Below are positions 8,408 to 58,704 of a DNA stretch of 64,000 nt, piece after piece. The position numbers and the translations under genes were made by a program. The stretch lies in contig NC_014762.1 in NCBI RefSeq assembly GCF_000183725.1, positions 62,001 to 126,000 of the forward strand, read 5' to 3'. Source of the DNA: Sulfuricurvum kujiense DSM 16994 (lineage in GTDB: Bacteria; Campylobacterota; Campylobacteria; Campylobacterales; Sulfurimonadaceae). The notes under the pieces are model-generated. The model searched no databases and was not told the DNA's origin. It saw only the letters and a list, made by a program, of their open reading frames with translations. How positions within the stretch are numbered: position 1 is the stretch's first letter; the number at the start of each line of letters is the position of its first letter.

Positions 8408-9109
8408 CTAAAACATCGGTGAACCAAAATCCAATCCTCCGCCAAAACTCATATTCGGATCGGAATATCCCGCCATCGCACTTTTGGTTCGCAGCATCGA
8501 AATATCCTGTTTCGGAGCGATCCCCTGCGGACACACCGGGACACACTCGCCGCAGAGAGTACAGTCCCAGATGCCGTTGGTTTGGACGGCTGCGATTTTT
8601 GCACTGCTATCCCCCTCGCGCGGATCGTTCACATAACGCCATACCCGTGTTAGGGCAAACGGCCCTATGAAGTCGGGGTTCACGGCATATACGGGGCAGG
8701 CACTAAAACACGACGTACAGAGAATACAGTCGCTTTGCGTCTCAATCCGCTCCATCTCTTCAACGCTTATATTCTCTTCTCTCGCAGATCCGATCCATGC
8801 TTCTCCTGCCTGGTTAAAACGTTCTACAAACGCGGTATCCACAACCAGATCACGGATGACACGGGTATTTCGTATCGGCTCAATTACGTCTCCGTCCTTT
8901 GGTTTATACTCGCACATCAGTTGCTCACGTCCGTTTACCCGTACGGCACAGCTTCCGCATACGCCGCTGCGGCATCCGTGAGAATAGGTCAATGTTGGAT
9001 CGATTTTGGTTTTAATATAGTTCAAAACCGCAAGAAGCGTGGTATTTTCTAACTCGACGTTATAGATTTGAACTTCATCGTTATTTGAACGCTTTATCGA
9101 AATATTCAT
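8408..9109 (-). CDS. Fumarate reductase/succinate dehydrogenase iron-sulfur subunit
   Basis: 233 residues from the ATG at 9109; a TTG three bases earlier is possible. The N-terminal 2Fe-2S ferredoxin domain has CRSGVCGSC...C (about residues 44-64). The C-terminal helical ferredoxin domain has CILCTSCFSACP and CTLCGECVPVCPQGIAP, two CxxCxxC...CP clusters for the [3Fe-4S]/[4Fe-4S] centres. It transfers electrons between the flavoprotein and a quinone or other partner. ATG overlaps the stop of the small acidic ORF upstream (TGATG). No membrane-anchor subunit follows; the next gene is yajQ, so the quinone-reactive partner is not encoded here. Confidence 0.9.
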   Translation of the reverse strand: MNISIKRSNNDEVQIYNVELENTTLLAVLNYIKTKIDPTLTYSHGCRSGVCGSCAVRVNGREQLMCEYKPKDGDVIEPIRNTRVIRDLVVDTAFVERFNQAGEAWIGSAREENISVEEMERIETQSDCILCTSCFSACPVYAVNPDFIGPFALTRVWRYVNDPREGDSSAKIAAVQTNGIWDCTLCGECVPVCPQGIAPKQDISMLRTKSAMAGYSDPNMSFGGGLDFGSPMF

Positions 9110-9246
9110 CAATCACACCACTCTCTTTCTTCATCTTCTTCGTCATCGTCTTCCTCGCTGACATCTTCGCATCGGCCGTTCCAGTCGCTCTCTTTTTCAT
9201 CATTCCATGTTTTATCATCGCCTAACACAGAAATATCTTCATTCAT
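9109..9246 (-). CDS. Small acidic ORF between the two oxidoreductase subunits
   Basis: A 45-codon ORF runs from ATG at 9246 to TGA at 9109-9111. Its ATG overlaps the flavoprotein stop (ATGA) and its stop overlaps the iron-sulfur subunit start (TGATG). The predicted peptide is strongly acidic in its second half ([18 protein letters not shown]) and contains three Trp and two Cys. Overlaps at both ends are the pattern of translationally coupled subunits, which is the main reason to believe it is expressed. I do not recognise the peptide; a small accessory or assembly factor is a guess. Confidence 0.55.
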
Positions 9247-13208: not shown

Positions 13209-13234
13209 TCATTCACTTTGTCTATAAATTTCCA

Positions 13235-13340
13235 TGATCCAATACCCAGAGCCGTTCCGGAGGCAGTAGTGCCGAGAGGAACGAGCGTTCTTGGATCACG
13301 GTATGCTCTTTTGATACTTTTCTGGCTAAACAGAAAAGTA
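13235..13340 (-). repeat. Family X structured repeat, copy X1
   Basis: Read on the minus strand from just after the purT stop, hairpin arms 13331-13340/13315-13324 (TACTTTTCTG...CAGAAAAGTA, 6-base loop) come first. They are followed by CAAAAGAGCAT and an outer stem of 8 bp between 13291-13298 and 13235-13242 (TTGGATCA with TGATCCAA). This encloses nested GTTCC/GGAAC and GGCA/TGCC pairings, with GCTCTGGGTA before the last arm. It is about 90 percent identical to copy X4 (38399-38506); one difference in the outer stem is compensatory (T-A for C-G). Confidence 0.8.
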
Positions 13341-13342
13341 CA

Positions 13343-18286: not shown

Positions 18287-18296
18287 CCAAAATACA

Positions 18297-18406
18297 TACT
18301 TTTCTTTTTAACAAGAAAAGTAAGCAAAAGAAAATTGTCTCCGCAACAAATCGCTGACGGTACGCGTTCGCACTTCTGCGCGCGACCTTGCTCTTTGTAT
18401 GTTGCG
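18297..18406 (+). repeat. Family X structured repeat, copy X2
   Basis: The hairpin TACTTTTCTT (18297-18306)/AAGAAAAGTA (18313-18322) has a 6-base loop and is followed by GCAAAAGAAAA. The outer stem is CGCAACA (18342-18348) with TGTTGCG (18400-18406). It encloses a GC-rich interior with CGCTGACGGTACGCG...GCGCGACCTTGCTCTTTGTA. The interior closely matches copy X3, but the outer stem sequence is different and still complementary. It starts 11 bases after the dnaG stop. Confidence 0.8.
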
Positions 18407-18434
18407 TTGACACGATGTATAAAAAAGGAATTTC

Positions 18435-37501: not shown

Positions 37502-38251
37502 ATGCTTCAAATCGCTAAATACTGTGCAAGCGGCAACGACTTTGTCATCTTTCATGCCTTTGAAAAAGCCGATCGTTCCCAATTGGCCCGTATTTTATGC
37601 GATCGCCAAAACGGCATCGGTGCGGACGGATTGATTGTTTTGGTGCCGCATGAAAGCCATGATTTTGAGTGGGAGTTTTACAATGCCGACGGTTCCACCG
37701 CTTCGATGTGCGGAAACGGAAGCCGTGCGTGTGCCCACTATGCCCACCGTTTCGGATTGGCTCCGTCATCCATGGCATTTTTGACGGGGGCCGGGGTCAT
37801 TAAAGCGCACGTTGAGGGAGATATGGTTCAAAGCGACCTTACCCCTCCCGTAATCGTCAATCAGGAGATTGTCGAGAGCGGAATGAAATGGTGGCTTATC
37901 GATACGGGAGTTCCTCATTTGATCACCTTTGATGCTGACATCGAACATTTCAATATCGATTTGGCGCGAACCCTTCGCCATCGCTACAATGCCAATGTCA
38001 ATATCGCGAGCATCAATCTTGACGGAACGCTTCGGGTGCGAACGTATGAGCGGGGTGTCGAGGATGAGACATTGGCCTGCGGAACGGGGATGGCGGCGAG
38101 TTTTTATCGAGCGGTACAAGAGAGACTCGTAGACGAAAATACGAAAGTATTTCCAAAAAGCGGAGAGACACTCTATTTGGGATTTGAAGAGGGTGTGATT
38201 ACTTTCAAAGGGGAAGTAAAAGGGGTTTTTGAAACCACTTGGAGAAATTAA
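37502..38251 (+). CDS. dapF: Diaminopimelate epimerase
   Basis: 249 residues. The two catalytic cysteines are in MCGNGSRACAHY and LACGTGMAAS. The N-terminal YCASGNDFVIF and RQNGIGADGLIVL are also typical. DapF converts LL- to meso-diaminopimelate for lysine and peptidoglycan. It is somewhat shorter than E. coli DapF (274), as usual in this class. AAAGGA precedes the ATG, and repeat X3 begins 8 bases after the stop. Confidence 0.95.
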   Translation: MLQIAKYCASGNDFVIFHAFEKADRSQLARILCDRQNGIGADGLIVLVPHESHDFEWEFYNADGSTASMCGNGSRACAHYAHRFGLAPSSMAFLTGAGVIKAHVEGDMVQSDLTPPVIVNQEIVESGMKWWLIDTGVPHLITFDADIEHFNIDLARTLRHRYNANVNIASINLDGTLRVRTYERGVEDETLACGTGMAASFYRAVQERLVDENTKVFPKSGETLYLGFEEGVITFKGEVKGVFETTWRN

Positions 38252-38258
38252 TACTTAC

Positions 38259-38374
38259 TTTCTTTTCTTTTTCATAAGAAAAGAAACAAAAGAAAATCAC
38301 CCTCACACCAAAACGCTGGCGGTACGCGTTTGCGGTTAGACGCACGCGACCTTGCTCTTGGTATGGTGTGAGGG
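38259..38374 (+). repeat. Family X structured repeat, copy X3
   Basis: Hairpin TTTCTTTTCTT (38259-38269)/AAGAAAAGAAA (38276-38286) with 6-base loop, CAAAAGA (38287-38293), outer stem CCCTCACACCA (38300-38310) with TGGTGTGAGGG (38364-38374), 11 perfect pairs. The interior has CGCTGGCGGTACGCG...CGCGACCTTGCTCTTGGTA, almost as in X2. It begins 8 bases after the dapF stop and faces copy X4. Confidence 0.82.
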
Positions 38375-38398
38375 CAATATTGTTTTTATAAAATTCCC

Positions 38399-38506
38399 GT
38401 AATCCAATACAAAGAGCCGTTCCGAAGGCAGTAGTGCCGAGAGGAACGTGCGTCCTTGGATTACGGTATGCTCTTTTGGTACTTTTCTGACTAAACAGAA
38501 AAGTAC
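38399..38506 (-). repeat. Family X structured repeat, copy X4
   Basis: On the minus strand, starting 11 bases after the prfA stop: hairpin GTACTTTTCTG/CAGAAAAGTAC (38496-38506, 38479-38489; 6-base loop), CAAAAGAGCAT, outer stem GTAATCCAA/TTGGATTAC (38399-38407, 38456-38464). About 90 percent identical to X1, with a compensatory pair change in the outer stem. X3 and X4 lie tail to tail between convergent genes. Confidence 0.82.
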
Positions 38507-38516
38507 ATAGAAAAAA

Positions 38517-39584
38517 TTATAAGCCCGCTCTCTCCATTATCTGCGCCTGCGCATCAGCAATCAACGGCTCGATAATATCATCCATCAATCCCCCCTGCAT
38601 AATCTCATCGAGACGGTAAAGGGTGAGGTTGATACGGTGGTCGGAGATACGGTTTTGCGGATAGTTGTAGGTACGGATACGCCCTGATCGATCCCCGGTT
38701 CCTACCTGCTCTTTACGTTCACTCATCTCTTTGACTTTTGCCTCTTCCATCTGCATCTCGTAGATACGGGCTTTGAGGATTTTCATCGCTTTGTCTTTGT
38801 TTTTATGCTGCGATTTTTCGTCCTGATTGGTGACGACGATGCCGGTAGGAAGGTGGGTGATTCGTACCGCCGAATCGGTCGTATTGACGCTTTGTCCTCC
38901 CGATCCGGAGGAACGCATAACATCGATTTTAAGATCATTTTCATTGATAGTCACCTCGACGTCATCGACTTCAGGCATGACGGCAACGGTGATCGCGGAA
39001 GTATGAACACGTCCCTGAGACTCGGTTGCAGGGACACGCTGTACGCGGTGCGTTCCCGCCTCGTACTTGAGCCGTGAGTAAACCTGCTCCCCTTTGATGA
39101 GGGCAATGATCTCTTTGTATCCTCCCGCATCGGATGGGCTGGAACTCATCAGTTCGATTTTCCATCCCTTGACATCGGCATAACGGACATAGGCATTGAA
39201 CAAATCACCGACAAAAATGGCCGCTTCGTCTCCGCCCGTACCGGCTCTAAGCTCGATATAAATGTTTCGTTTATCATTCGGATCGGCCGGAATGAGGAGT
39301 TTTTTAATCTCCTCTTCCAGAGGTTCTACCATCGGTTCTAGTGTTCTAAGTTCCTCTTTGGCCAGTTCGCCGAGTTCCGCATCAAAAGCAAGTGATTTGT
39401 TCTCTTCGATATCTTCGAGGAGTTTTTTGTACTCAGTCGCTTTATTTACAATGGCTTGGATGGAAGATTGCTCTTTTGAGAGTTCGGTCATTCTTTTGAT
39501 GTCATTGCCGATATCGGGAGAACTGAGAAGTTCGGTTAGTTCGTTGTAACGGTTGATAAACGGGGTGAGTTTGTCGGATAACAT
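38517..39584 (-). CDS. prfA: Peptide chain release factor 1
   Basis: 355 residues. The GGQ peptidyl-hydrolysis motif is in [15 protein letters not shown]. The stop-codon recognition domain has the PxT-like [15 protein letters not shown], and the [11 protein letters not shown] block is also typical. RF1 reads UAA and UAG. The class-I RF1 assignment rests on length and PAT motif. It is followed by copy X4. Confidence 0.96.
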
Positions 39585-41873: not shown

Positions 41874-41949
41874 GGTCTTATAGCTCAGTTGGTAGAGCAC
41901 TACCTCGACAAGGTAGTGGTCACAGGTTCGAGTCCTGTTGGGACCACCA
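41874..41949 (+). tRNA. tRNA-Val (GAC anticodon)
   Basis: 76 bases: acceptor GGTCTTA/TGGGACC with CCA encoded, D-arm AGCTCAGTTGGTAGAGC, anticodon stem CTACC/GGTAG with loop TCGACAA, T-arm ACAGGTTCGAGTCCTGT. A TATAAT box lies at 41844-41849. Confidence 0.96.
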
Positions 41950-42008
41950 TTTCTCCTTAATTTTCCTCTAAATTTATTCATTTAATCGTAAACCAATCAA
42001 TAATCCCG

Positions 42009-42014
42009 TATAAT
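42009..42014 (+). promoter_or_regulatory. -10 box of the thrS-infC transcript
   Basis: TATAAT at 42009-42014, 32 bases before the thrS ATG, with GAGG as ribosome site. No clear -35 box. Confidence 0.5.
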
Positions 42015-42045
42015 CCGCGATATTTTCTCAAATGAGGCATACCCA

Positions 42046-43854
42046 ATGGATATTATTGCGATCAAGCACAACGATCAAATAGTTGATTTACAAACCGCCG
42101 GGGCACTTGGAATTACGGGTGAAGAGATCGCTTATGATAACTCTCCCGATGCACTGGAAGTGATTCGCCACTCCTGTGCCCACTTAATGGCCGAGGCGAT
42201 CAAAGCTCTTTATACTGATGCTAAATTTTTTGTCGGACCGACTGTTAAAGAGGGTTTCTATTATGATTTTAAAGTCAATGAAACGATCGGTGAAGATGAT
42301 CTAAAAACCATTGAAAAAAAGATGCTCGATATTGCCAAAGGTAAAGAGAAAATCGAGCGTTACGAAATTACCAAAAATGAAGCGCGTGCAAAATTTGCCA
42401 ACGATCACCTCAAGCAGGCGGTTATGGATCGCATTCCAAGCGATACGGTAACCATATACAAGCAGGGTGAATTTGAAGACCTTTGCCGCGGTCCGCATTT
42501 GCCGAGTGTCGGATTGCTGCGTTACTTTAAACTGACGAAGATTTCCGGGGCCTATCTCGGCGGTGACAGCAAAAACGAAATGTTGACCCGTATCTACGGT
42601 ATCGCGTTTGCCGATAAAGAGTCACTCAAAGCATACCTTGATCAAATGGCGGAAGCGGAAAAACGCGATCACCGCAAAATCGGTGCCGAGATGAAGCTGT
42701 TCACTTTCCGCGAAGAGGTCGGTGCGGGATTCCCGATCTGGCTTCCTGCGGGTGCGCGCATGCGTTCACGCCTCGAACAGCTCCTTTTCAAAGCGCACCG
42801 CAAACGGGGTTATGAGCCGGTTCGCGGTCCTGAGATGCTTCGCTCAGACTTATGGAAAGTATCGGGTCACTATCAAAACTACGGCGAAAACATGTATTTC
42901 ACCCATATCGATGAGCTGGAGTTCGGGGTTAAACCGATGAACTGTGTCGGCCATATTAAAGTATACGAGCATGATCTGCATTCGTATCGCGATCTTCCTC
43001 TCAAATATTTCGAATACGGGGTCGTTCACCGTCATGAGATGACAGGAGCACTTCACGGGTTGTTCCGTGTCCGTGAATTTACCCAAGACGATGCGCACAT
43101 CTTCTGTACCGCCGATCAAATCGAGCAGCAGATCATCGAAGTCGTCGATTTCGTTGATAAAATTATGAAAACATTTGAGTTTAACTATAAAATGATGATT
43201 TCGACGAAACCTGAAAAAGCAGTTGGAGATGACGCGGTTTGGGAGATTTCTACTAACGCATTGAAAACGGCGATGGATAAAAACAACCTCTCTTATGAAA
43301 TAGATGAGGGGGGCGGAGCGTTCTACGGCCCTAAAATCGATATCAAAATTACCGATGCTATCGGGCGCGAATGGCAGTGCGGGACGATCCAGCTGGATTT
43401 CAATCTCCCGGCACGTTTCGAGCTTGAATACAACGGCGAAGAGAATGCTAAAATACAACCGGTTATGATTCATAGAGCGATTTTAGGTTCGTTTGAGCGA
43501 TTTGTTGGTATATTGACGGAGCATTACGCTGGGGAATTCCCGATGTTCATCGCTCCGACGCAGGTTGCAATCGTTCCGATTGCCCCTACGCACGAAGCAT
43601 ATGCACGTGAATTAGCCGATAAATTGATCGATATGGGTGCCGATTTTGAGATTTTCGATAAAAATGAGAGTCTTAACAAACGGATCCGTACAGCGGAAAA
43701 AGGGCGCGTTCCTATGATCATCGTTCTCGGTGATGAAGAGGTCGCTAATAAAAGCATTGCGGTGCGTGATCGACGATCGCGCGAGCAATACAACCTGAGC
43801 GAAGAGGATTTCATCTCTCTGGTTAAACAAAAAATTAATGAGGTACATTTTTGA
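42046..43854 (+). CDS. thrS: Threonyl-tRNA synthetase
   Basis: 602 residues. The editing domain has [11 protein letters not shown]; the class II core has motif 2 [18 protein letters not shown] and motif 3 [15 protein letters not shown], with zinc ligands MNCVGH, and the anticodon-binding domain closes the protein. It is ~40 residues shorter than E. coli ThrS, with a reduced N-terminal TGS region, as in other Campylobacterota. Its stop overlaps the infC start. Confidence 0.97.
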
Positions 43855-46219: not shown

Positions 46220-46335
46220 TTTCTTTTCTTTACCACAAAGAAAAGAAACAAAAGAAGCTCATCTTTCAAGCAAAGCGCACACGCGACTTTTGGCACTTCT
46301 GCCATCCCGCGTGGCTTTAAAGGATGCTTGAAAGA
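46220..46335 (+). repeat. Family X structured repeat, copy X5
   Basis: Hairpin TTTCTTTTCTTT (46220-46231)/AAAGAAAAGAAA (46237-46248), CAAAAGAA, outer stem TCTTTCAAGCA (46262-46272) with TGCTTGAAAGA (46325-46335), 11 perfect pairs. The interior is more divergent (AAGCGCACACGCG...TGGCACTTCTGCCA...CGCGTGGCTTT) but keeps GC-rich hairpins. It lies between the rnj stop and the thyX start and, unlike the others, is oriented against both. Confidence 0.75.
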
Positions 46336-58560: not shown

Positions 58561-58612
58561 TTTTGCAAGTAGAAAATTCGGGAAGATTATATCTTCCAAT
58601 ATTGTTCAATAA

Positions 58613-58704
58613 ATGGATGCTAGGGTTCCGACTGCAAAGTGCTGGTCCGAGAGTATCCGGCCTCGTAAGCGGCTACACGGAGGGATAAAAGCCCGGGAGA
58701 GAGA
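58613..58704 (+). ncRNA. Guanidine-I riboswitch (ykkC class)
   Basis: CTAGGGTTCCG (58620-58630), CTGGTCCGAGAG (58642-58653), ACACGGAGGGATAAAAGCCC and GGGAGA are the conserved blocks of the ykkC/guanidine-I aptamer in the right order. GGAT (58615-58618) pairs with ATCC (58655-58658) to close P1. The class binds guanidinium and turns on genes for its export or breakdown. It stands directly upstream of transporter and carboxylase genes that fit guanidine degradation. Confidence 0.93.

Follow-up and report, generated by a model that had tools for sequence, protein, structure and literature searches.

The Structured Elements Between prfA and dapF

Short structured elements occur five times between the genes of the 64-kb stretch of Sulfuricurvum DNA analyzed here (the window), and two of them face each other in the gap between prfA and dapF. 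The locus raises the question of what such elements, referred to below as family X, actually are. They could belong to transcripts and act at the 3′ ends of genes, as the initial annotation suggested from their covarying stems and their positions behind stop codons, or they could be repeats that spread and rearrange as DNA.

R1, a covariance model built for family X, recovered all five copies at E ≤ 0.001, with boundaries within a few bases of those first proposed (Table 1). X3 and X4 face each other as a convergent pair, and the same layout recurs elsewhere in the genome. The AT hairpin described for the family (H1; 10–12 bp, loop of 5–6) and the outer stem (P2) are present in each of the five copies, and each copy folds better than all of 200 dinucleotide shuffles (z −3.41 to −7.20).

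Some details of the earlier description needed adjustment. The outer stem had been called perfectly complementary in every copy, which is true of the shorter arms then listed; when the full 11-pair stem is considered, pairing is complete in register in X3, X4 and X5 (the outermost P2 pair of X5 is a gap in alignment A6, and its pairing is seen in the fold), but X1 has one G.T pair and X2 has two mismatches. The motif GCTCTKKGTA, assigned to most copies, is found in four of them, with GCTTTAAAGGA in its place in X5. Likewise, four of the five do start after a stop codon on the same strand, although at gaps of 1, 9, 7 and 10 nt in model coordinates rather than 8–11.

Table 1. Family X copies in the window, the parts of the convergent pair, and a site that is filled in a relative. 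Gene names (purT, dnaG, dapF, prfA, thyX, RNase J) are those of NCBIfam.
Feature	Position	Strand	Description
X1	13231..13341	minus	B type, single; 115.5 bits; 1 nt (model coordinates) after purT stop
X2	18296..18411	plus	A type, single; 91.9 bits; 9 nt after dnaG stop
X3	38259..38375	plus	A type, half of convergent pair; 102.6 bits, fold z −7.03; 7 nt after dapF stop
X4	38396..38506	minus	B type, other half of the pair; 117.6 bits, fold z −7.20; 10 nt after prfA stop
X5	46220..46335	plus	C type, single; 80.7 bits; between thyX and RNase J gene, antisense to both
X3 H1 AT hairpin	38259..38286	plus	11 bp, loop 6; from sequence and fold
X3 CAAAAGA tag	38287..38293	plus	CAAAAG invariant in 62 aligned copies
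X3 P2 5′ arm	38300..38310	plus	CCCTCACACCA; from sequence, fold and alignment
X3 P2 3′ arm	38364..38374	plus	TGGTGTGAGGG; from sequence, fold and alignment
X4 H1 AT hairpin	38479..38506	minus	11-bp arms, loop 6; from sequence and fold
X4 P2 5′ arm	38456..38466	minus	CCGTAATCCAA as minus-strand letters
X4 P2 3′ arm	38397..38407	minus	TTGGATTACGG as minus-strand letters
X3–X4 spacer	38376..38395		AT-rich, 20 nt between model matches
Empty site	9109..9246		From L075 alignment; B-type copy there in relative G003

Architecture and Subtypes

A typical copy is ~110 bases long and consists, in order, of the H1 hairpin, the sequence CAAAAGA, a short spacer, and P2, a stem of 11–12 bp whose branched interior contains another stem as well as a short GGCACTNCTGCC-type hairpin. 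Subtypes are distinguished by the 5′ arm of P2, which reads GCCCTCACACCA or a relative of it in type A, GCCGCTCAAACA with a symmetric internal mismatch in type A′, CCGTGATCCAA in type B, and TCTTTCAAGCA, TCTCTCCGGCA, TCCTTTTGGCA and others in type C. Convergent pairs are frequent, often joining an A or A′ half to a B half, and singles are common too. Some of the longer pair spacers elsewhere contain a small TTCGC hairpin. Hybrid copies also exist, such as the one at L081:2661-2774, in which a type A stem encloses a type B interior.

Distribution

Copies are scattered through the genome that contains the window (2.82 Mb, five contigs) and through those of its relatives. Its own complement comprised 37 distinct matches of at least 95 nt in the loci examined, which were found by BLAST-type searches with X3 and X4 plus a structure scan and then scored with R1. 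Matches were present in 23 of 25 genomes of the genus, the genome itself included, where “genus” is the kinship label of the genome collection. Across the Campylobacterota, R1 matched at least 21 of 298 genomes under strict filters, with at most 12 candidates scored per genome, and several of the matches outside the window’s family were short. The elements are thus a dispersed family, as first described, in this genome and in related Campylobacterota.

The family had not been recognized when it was first noticed, and Rfam did not place it either. At gathering score, the whole window yielded five matches and none on a family X copy; a permissive search of 38240-38520 gave SurC as its best match below threshold (21.6 bits against a gathering score of 80). 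Searches of the open-access literature by motif strings found no paper on such a repeat, and none of the papers listed by topic was recognized as describing one. Rfam matches elsewhere in the window include an HPnc0260 antisense RNA (41911-42062, 67.2 bits) that overlaps a tRNA on the other strand (41874-41946), and a Guanidine-I riboswitch (58609-58701, 78 bits).

Covariation of the Paired Arms

When 62 copies of all types were aligned, two-sided changes occurred in 22 of 35 pairs and filled 288 cells, a value that none of 500 shuffles reached (105.5 after shuffling). Since the types might yield two-sided changes as blocks, the test was repeated on the 36 copies of type B alone. Here, 13 of 32 pairs carried two-sided changes (42 cells against 8.6, and again reached by none of 500 shuffles), 96.8% of the cells were paired, and every slid control fell far below the true register. 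H1 is among the stems with such changes, and the pair that closes its loop is G-C, C-G or U-A. The shuffle results are not to be read as probabilities because the copies are related. The view that the sequence changes while its pairing is kept is borne out for all types together and within type B.

Inverted doublets with compensatory changes are also described for REPINs, where such changes are reported to be common (PMC3116915), so kept pairing alone is no proof of an RNA.

Evidence for and against a 3′-End RNA

One explanation holds that family X is a selected RNA element of gene 3′ ends, serving as a terminator in one or both directions or as a 3′ barrier. H1 and P2 would fold in the transcript, a pair would end both convergent transcripts, and copies would have been duplicated and kept for their function. 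This explanation appears rather unlikely, and the evidence that bears on it comes from placement, from the mismatches in the stems, and from the comparison of sites between relatives.

Placement speaks for it in several respects. A start −1 to 10 nt after a same-strand stop was seen in 47 of 82 distinct copies, and the settings of 81 copies were convergent in 48 cases, tandem in 33 and divergent in 0, compared with 20 convergent, 89 tandem and 21 divergent among 130 gene pairs of own-genome sequence examined as background; these setting counts use ORFs of at least 90 aa as rough gene calls, include one weak 31-bit match, and enter orthologous sites and both pair halves separately. The preference for gene 3′ ends that the five window copies had hinted at is therefore supported by the larger set. 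In an uncontrolled count, P2 is followed by T-rich sequence in 48 of 81 copies, the number being the same for each strand, and one terminator-like match was found in 38200-38560 (shuffle mean 0.4). A terminator role could still apply. Intrinsic terminators resemble family X in their position behind genes and in the T-rich stretch, but family X differs in its large branched stem, its unpaired conserved CAAAAGA, its dispersal and its varying presence at a given site, and a P2 closed around a branched interior of ~50 nt is atypical for an intrinsic terminator.

Most of the orientation signal stems from convergent gene pairs, between which an element is preceded by a stop codon whichever way it points. 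Among the tandem cases, 18 elements lie on the gene strand and 15 on the opposite one, a split that counts against the RNA explanation.

The spectrum of mismatches was taken from alignments A6 and A7, as C-type P2 is out of register in A5, and A6 rows with more than three non-Watson–Crick cells in a helix were omitted from that helix’s count (81 rows in total). G.T plus T.G cells compared with A.C plus C.A cells numbered 7 versus 19 in P2 (79 rows), 4 versus 9 in H1 (81 rows), 18 versus 15 in the inner stem P3a (64 rows), and 0 versus 3 in P3b (79 rows). Type B alone gave 5 versus 14 in P2, 2 versus 4 in H1, 4 versus 4 in P3a, and 0 versus 0 in P3b. A selected sense RNA should tolerate G.U and not A.C; P2 and H1 do not behave as this predicts, although P3a shows no such departure. 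Because the rows are non-independent and common descent accounts for some of the A.C cells, these counts do not prove the opposite strand to be the selected form. Together with the tandem split and the DNA-level rearrangements described below, the excess of A.C over G.U in P2 and H1 leaves the step from covariation to an RNA with a 3′-UTR, termination or processing role, as the initial annotation had it, unsupported.

Filled, Empty and Inverted Sites

For the prfA-dapF gap, the site of X3 and X4, 40 genomes gave a match, and the 30 loci retrieved from among them were read. X copies were present in eight of these loci, and their make-up differed: B + A in the window’s own genome, A′ + C in G017, A without H1 plus B in G015, B in G023, B interrupted by extra sequence in G001, C in both G049 and G014, and A in G002. 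No X copy was found in the other 22 loci, among which the stops abut or lie a few nt apart in several (for example, G019, G012, G009 and G016) and the rest hold unrelated repeats or other genes, with a few unreadable because of an N run or a broken contig. Such frequent absence weighs against a 3′-end RNA that is kept for its function.

Other repeats were seen in the same gap. A second repeat family (CGCAAGCGATTTTGGGCTTCCTGCCGAAGGAAACCCAG-like) fills it in six loci (L101, L104, L106, L108, L115 and L122, from G042, G011, G054, G052, G004 and G005, respectively), and a third repeat (CCTGAGCTTGTCGAAGGG-like) lies there in L105 and L119.

A second informative site lies between an MFS gene and thiG, names that derive from a reading of the translated gene ends. 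Copies are located between both genes in G000, G004, G009, G012 and G015, and adjoin thiG in G002, G010 and G020, where the gene on the far side differs. In G000 and G012 the B copy adjoins the MFS gene and the A copy adjoins thiG, while in G004 and G015 the order of the pair is inverted. The short leaders at both stops are unchanged despite the inversion, which places the breakpoints within or close to H1. Such an inversion could arise simply by recombination between the two H1 arms.

Sites that are filled in one genome and empty in another were found as well. Three copies of relatives (L072, L073 and L075) occupy sites that are empty in the window’s own genome; the one at 9109-9246 of the window lies between two genes of succinate/fumarate reductase-like families. 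No target-site duplication was visible at the three filled/empty sites, a test limited by intergenic divergence. When G236 was compared with G331 (88% identity), none of the gaps examined was a clean filled/empty site. Filled and empty sites, pair inversion and the exchange of bodies together indicate that family X rearranges at the DNA level.

The flanks of these loci temper any notion of rapid spread. At least one flank is shared with the site of an own-genome copy in 17 of 23 loci of relatives, as would also suit an RNA retained at gene 3′ ends, and the mean identity of B copies is 0.852 within a genome and 0.872 between genomes, a comparison biased by the choice of relatives by similarity. 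Shared flanks and similar identities within and between genomes thus argue against a recent burst, and current mobility is unsupported.

Whether any enzyme or any selection on the fold is needed may also be questioned. Family X could consist of old repeats whose pairing is upheld by DNA mechanics alone, through template switching and gene conversion at palindromes, by which the two arms would change in concert, with homologous recombination between H1 or body sequences accounting for inversion and body exchange. This explanation, which we consider unlikely, would fit the finding that two-sided changes in type B (the 42 cells noted above) exceed one-sided changes to another standard pair, the occurrence of A.C mismatches as readily as G.T, the hybrid copies, the inversion breakpoints in or near H1, and the similar identities within and between genomes. 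However, it gives no account of copies at sites that are empty in relatives, nor of the invariant unpaired CAAAAG and the conserved inner hairpin.

Comparison with Known Element Classes

Among described repeats, REPINs and other REP doublets (BIMEs) come closest in form. Family X resembles them in being extragenic, in comprising inverted doublets beside singlets, in its compensatory changes (PMC3116915), and in its settings, REP dimers preferring convergent and unidirectional ones (PMC3733652). Like REPs and REPINs, it forms inverted doublets that can fold, and its stem changes are compensatory. A family X half is nevertheless distinct from a REP, with ~110 nt, its own AT hairpin and a large outer stem as opposed to the 20–40 bp of a REP itself, and family X has neither the GTAG or CGTC tag nor the link to a Y1 (RAYT) gene, tag and link being the defining features of REPINs. 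GTAG was found within 12 nt 5′ of H1 in one of 81 copies, and CGTC also in one of 81; GTAG stood at the 3′ base of H1 in nine of 81.

MITEs are likewise short, non-coding and dispersed, with inverted halves. In family X singles are common, and it may differ from MITEs in two further respects: no target-site duplication was seen at three filled/empty sites, where intergenic divergence limits the test, and no related transposon was recognized among the neighbors of 120 head-motif loci or through Y1 and DUF559.

The attC sites of integrons are located behind stop codons and are recognized more by their fold than by their sequence. Family X copies also lie behind stops, but the genes that flank them in the window are housekeeping genes, and the R-box pair RYYYAAC...GTTRRRY occurred together in none of 81 copies. 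A reading of H1 as a dif-like 11-6-11 site of a tyrosine recombinase was set aside, as the centers of both halves differ.

Search for a Mobilizing Enzyme

Three matches to the Y1 transposase family (PF01797) lie in the window’s own genome at C4:2124346-2127691. The three neighboring genes (L057, L059 and L091; G000:C4:2123971-2127724), which are labeled RAYT-like, have ORF lengths of 246, 247 and 145 aa; the second and third are nearly identical over their shared part. A reading of family X as a strict REPIN, moved by these transposases, is very improbable in spite of its REPIN-like inverted doublets and compensatory changes (PMC3116915) and the presence of the three genes, given the rarity of GTAG 5′ of H1, the lack of association across 37 genomes (Y1 in 8 of 18 X-bearing versus 9 of 19 X-lacking genomes), and the lack of any X copy in the 12 kb around these genes (C4:2120000-2132000) that a structure scan covered. 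DUF559 was also considered as a partner and rejected, with 2 of 18 X-bearing and 3 of 19 X-lacking genomes (5 of 37 in total).

A Proposed REPIN-Like Inverted Doublet

In the explanation favored here, family X consists of non-autonomous inverted doublets, similar to REPINs, which undergo rearrangement as DNA and are retained behind genes; the chances that this is correct appear about even. It draws on the copy numbers, the covariation, the DNA-level changes, the lack of a G.U preference and the gene settings described above. Under this model, the family in Sulfuricurvum and some relatives would be built from two inverted halves of ~110 nt, each with H1, CAAAAGA and P2, and with many halves standing alone. 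It would spread and rearrange as DNA, most likely via a folded single strand, and would be recognized in trans by H1-CAAAAGA and the shape of P2 rather than by the sequence of P2. We infer a single-stranded intermediate and a trans-acting enzyme. Copies would persist where they are least harmful or somewhat useful, namely behind stops and above all between convergent genes; this setting may result from tolerance, or from a benefit as terminator or insulator. Several points stand against the model: the enzyme that would move the element was not found, with neither Y1 nor DUF559 linked to X; no target-site duplication was visible at the filled/empty sites; the shared flanks and similar identities speak against a recent burst; many copies are single halves; and the inversion could be simple recombination.

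The Head Motif in Other Phyla

The head motif of the element recurs far beyond the Campylobacterota. An exact 22-mer of the head motif, AAAGAAAAGTAACCAAAAGAAA, occurs in at least 120 stretches, and the matches listed include Gammaproteobacteria, Burkholderia, Bacteroidota, Desulfobacterota, Nitrospirae, Selenomonadales, Clostridia and Lentisphaerae. The idea that the body is shared across phyla as well did not hold up, as an outer stem up to 400 nt downstream of the head was detected at p<0.05 in 10 of 123 occurrences versus 12 of 122 control positions. The same outer-stem test detects 41 of 79 copies in the window’s genus and 9 of 32 in other Campylobacterota genera. With the test positive in the genus and at chance across phyla, sharing is shown in most phyla for the head motif alone.

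Head-motif loci also provided a view of neighboring genes. Among the loci listed, of which 51 of 120 could be placed, the upstream gene was on the same strand in 29 and on the opposite strand in 22, a weak difference based on rough gene calls. By eye, no gene was recognized as a recurrent neighbor of the head among the 40 largest of the ORF clusters listed for the 120 loci, translations of the repeat itself aside.

Paraburkholderia is a special case. With a 600-nt span, the outer-stem test was positive in nine of nine occurrences there, and the element is a palindromic doublet of ~690 bp with a long outer stem, in which a pair of heads separated by ~510 bases point toward each other. The doublet has dozens of BLAST places on several megaplasmids, and its flanks carry a GC hairpin and GCTGGCATCCGCG repeats. 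P. phymatum is without the element at two orthologous sites, where the junctions are not clean.

Several observations accompany these matches. Nested palindromes of ~690 bp with the head at both ends were located at L338:24147-24854, L339:22217-22903 and L339:24198-24908, and at two orthologous sites in Paraburkholderia most of the element is ~83–86% alike, compared with 91–97% for the flanks. In genus g22 (L157 and L159; G236 and G331), elements are packed into a small number of intergenic clusters, along with a second type (CTACTTTTTCTAAAAAAGTGGC-like hairpin) and small GCTTCGACACGTCGAAGC hairpins. An Oscillospiraceae contig (L202:3236-3393) has the head motif three times at 68-bp spacing.

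As a tentative possibility, family X and the Paraburkholderia doublets may be two branches of a class of DNA hairpins, as yet unnamed and present in many phyla, with the head ACTTTTCTTT-loop-AAAGAAAAGT-(N)CAAAAGA; a putative enzyme that moves or maintains them would read H1-CAAAAGA together with the shape of the stem that follows.

Significance

Family X is a caution for the reading of intergenic repeats, in which strong covariation does not by itself show an RNA. If the REPIN-like model is correct, the genus would harbor a REPIN-like system without the known transposase or tag, in which pairing stays constant while sequence varies, and in which related species differ in presence, orientation and body at single sites. 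A search for a protein that binds H1-CAAAAGA would then directly test what moves or conserves such folded repeats of DNA.
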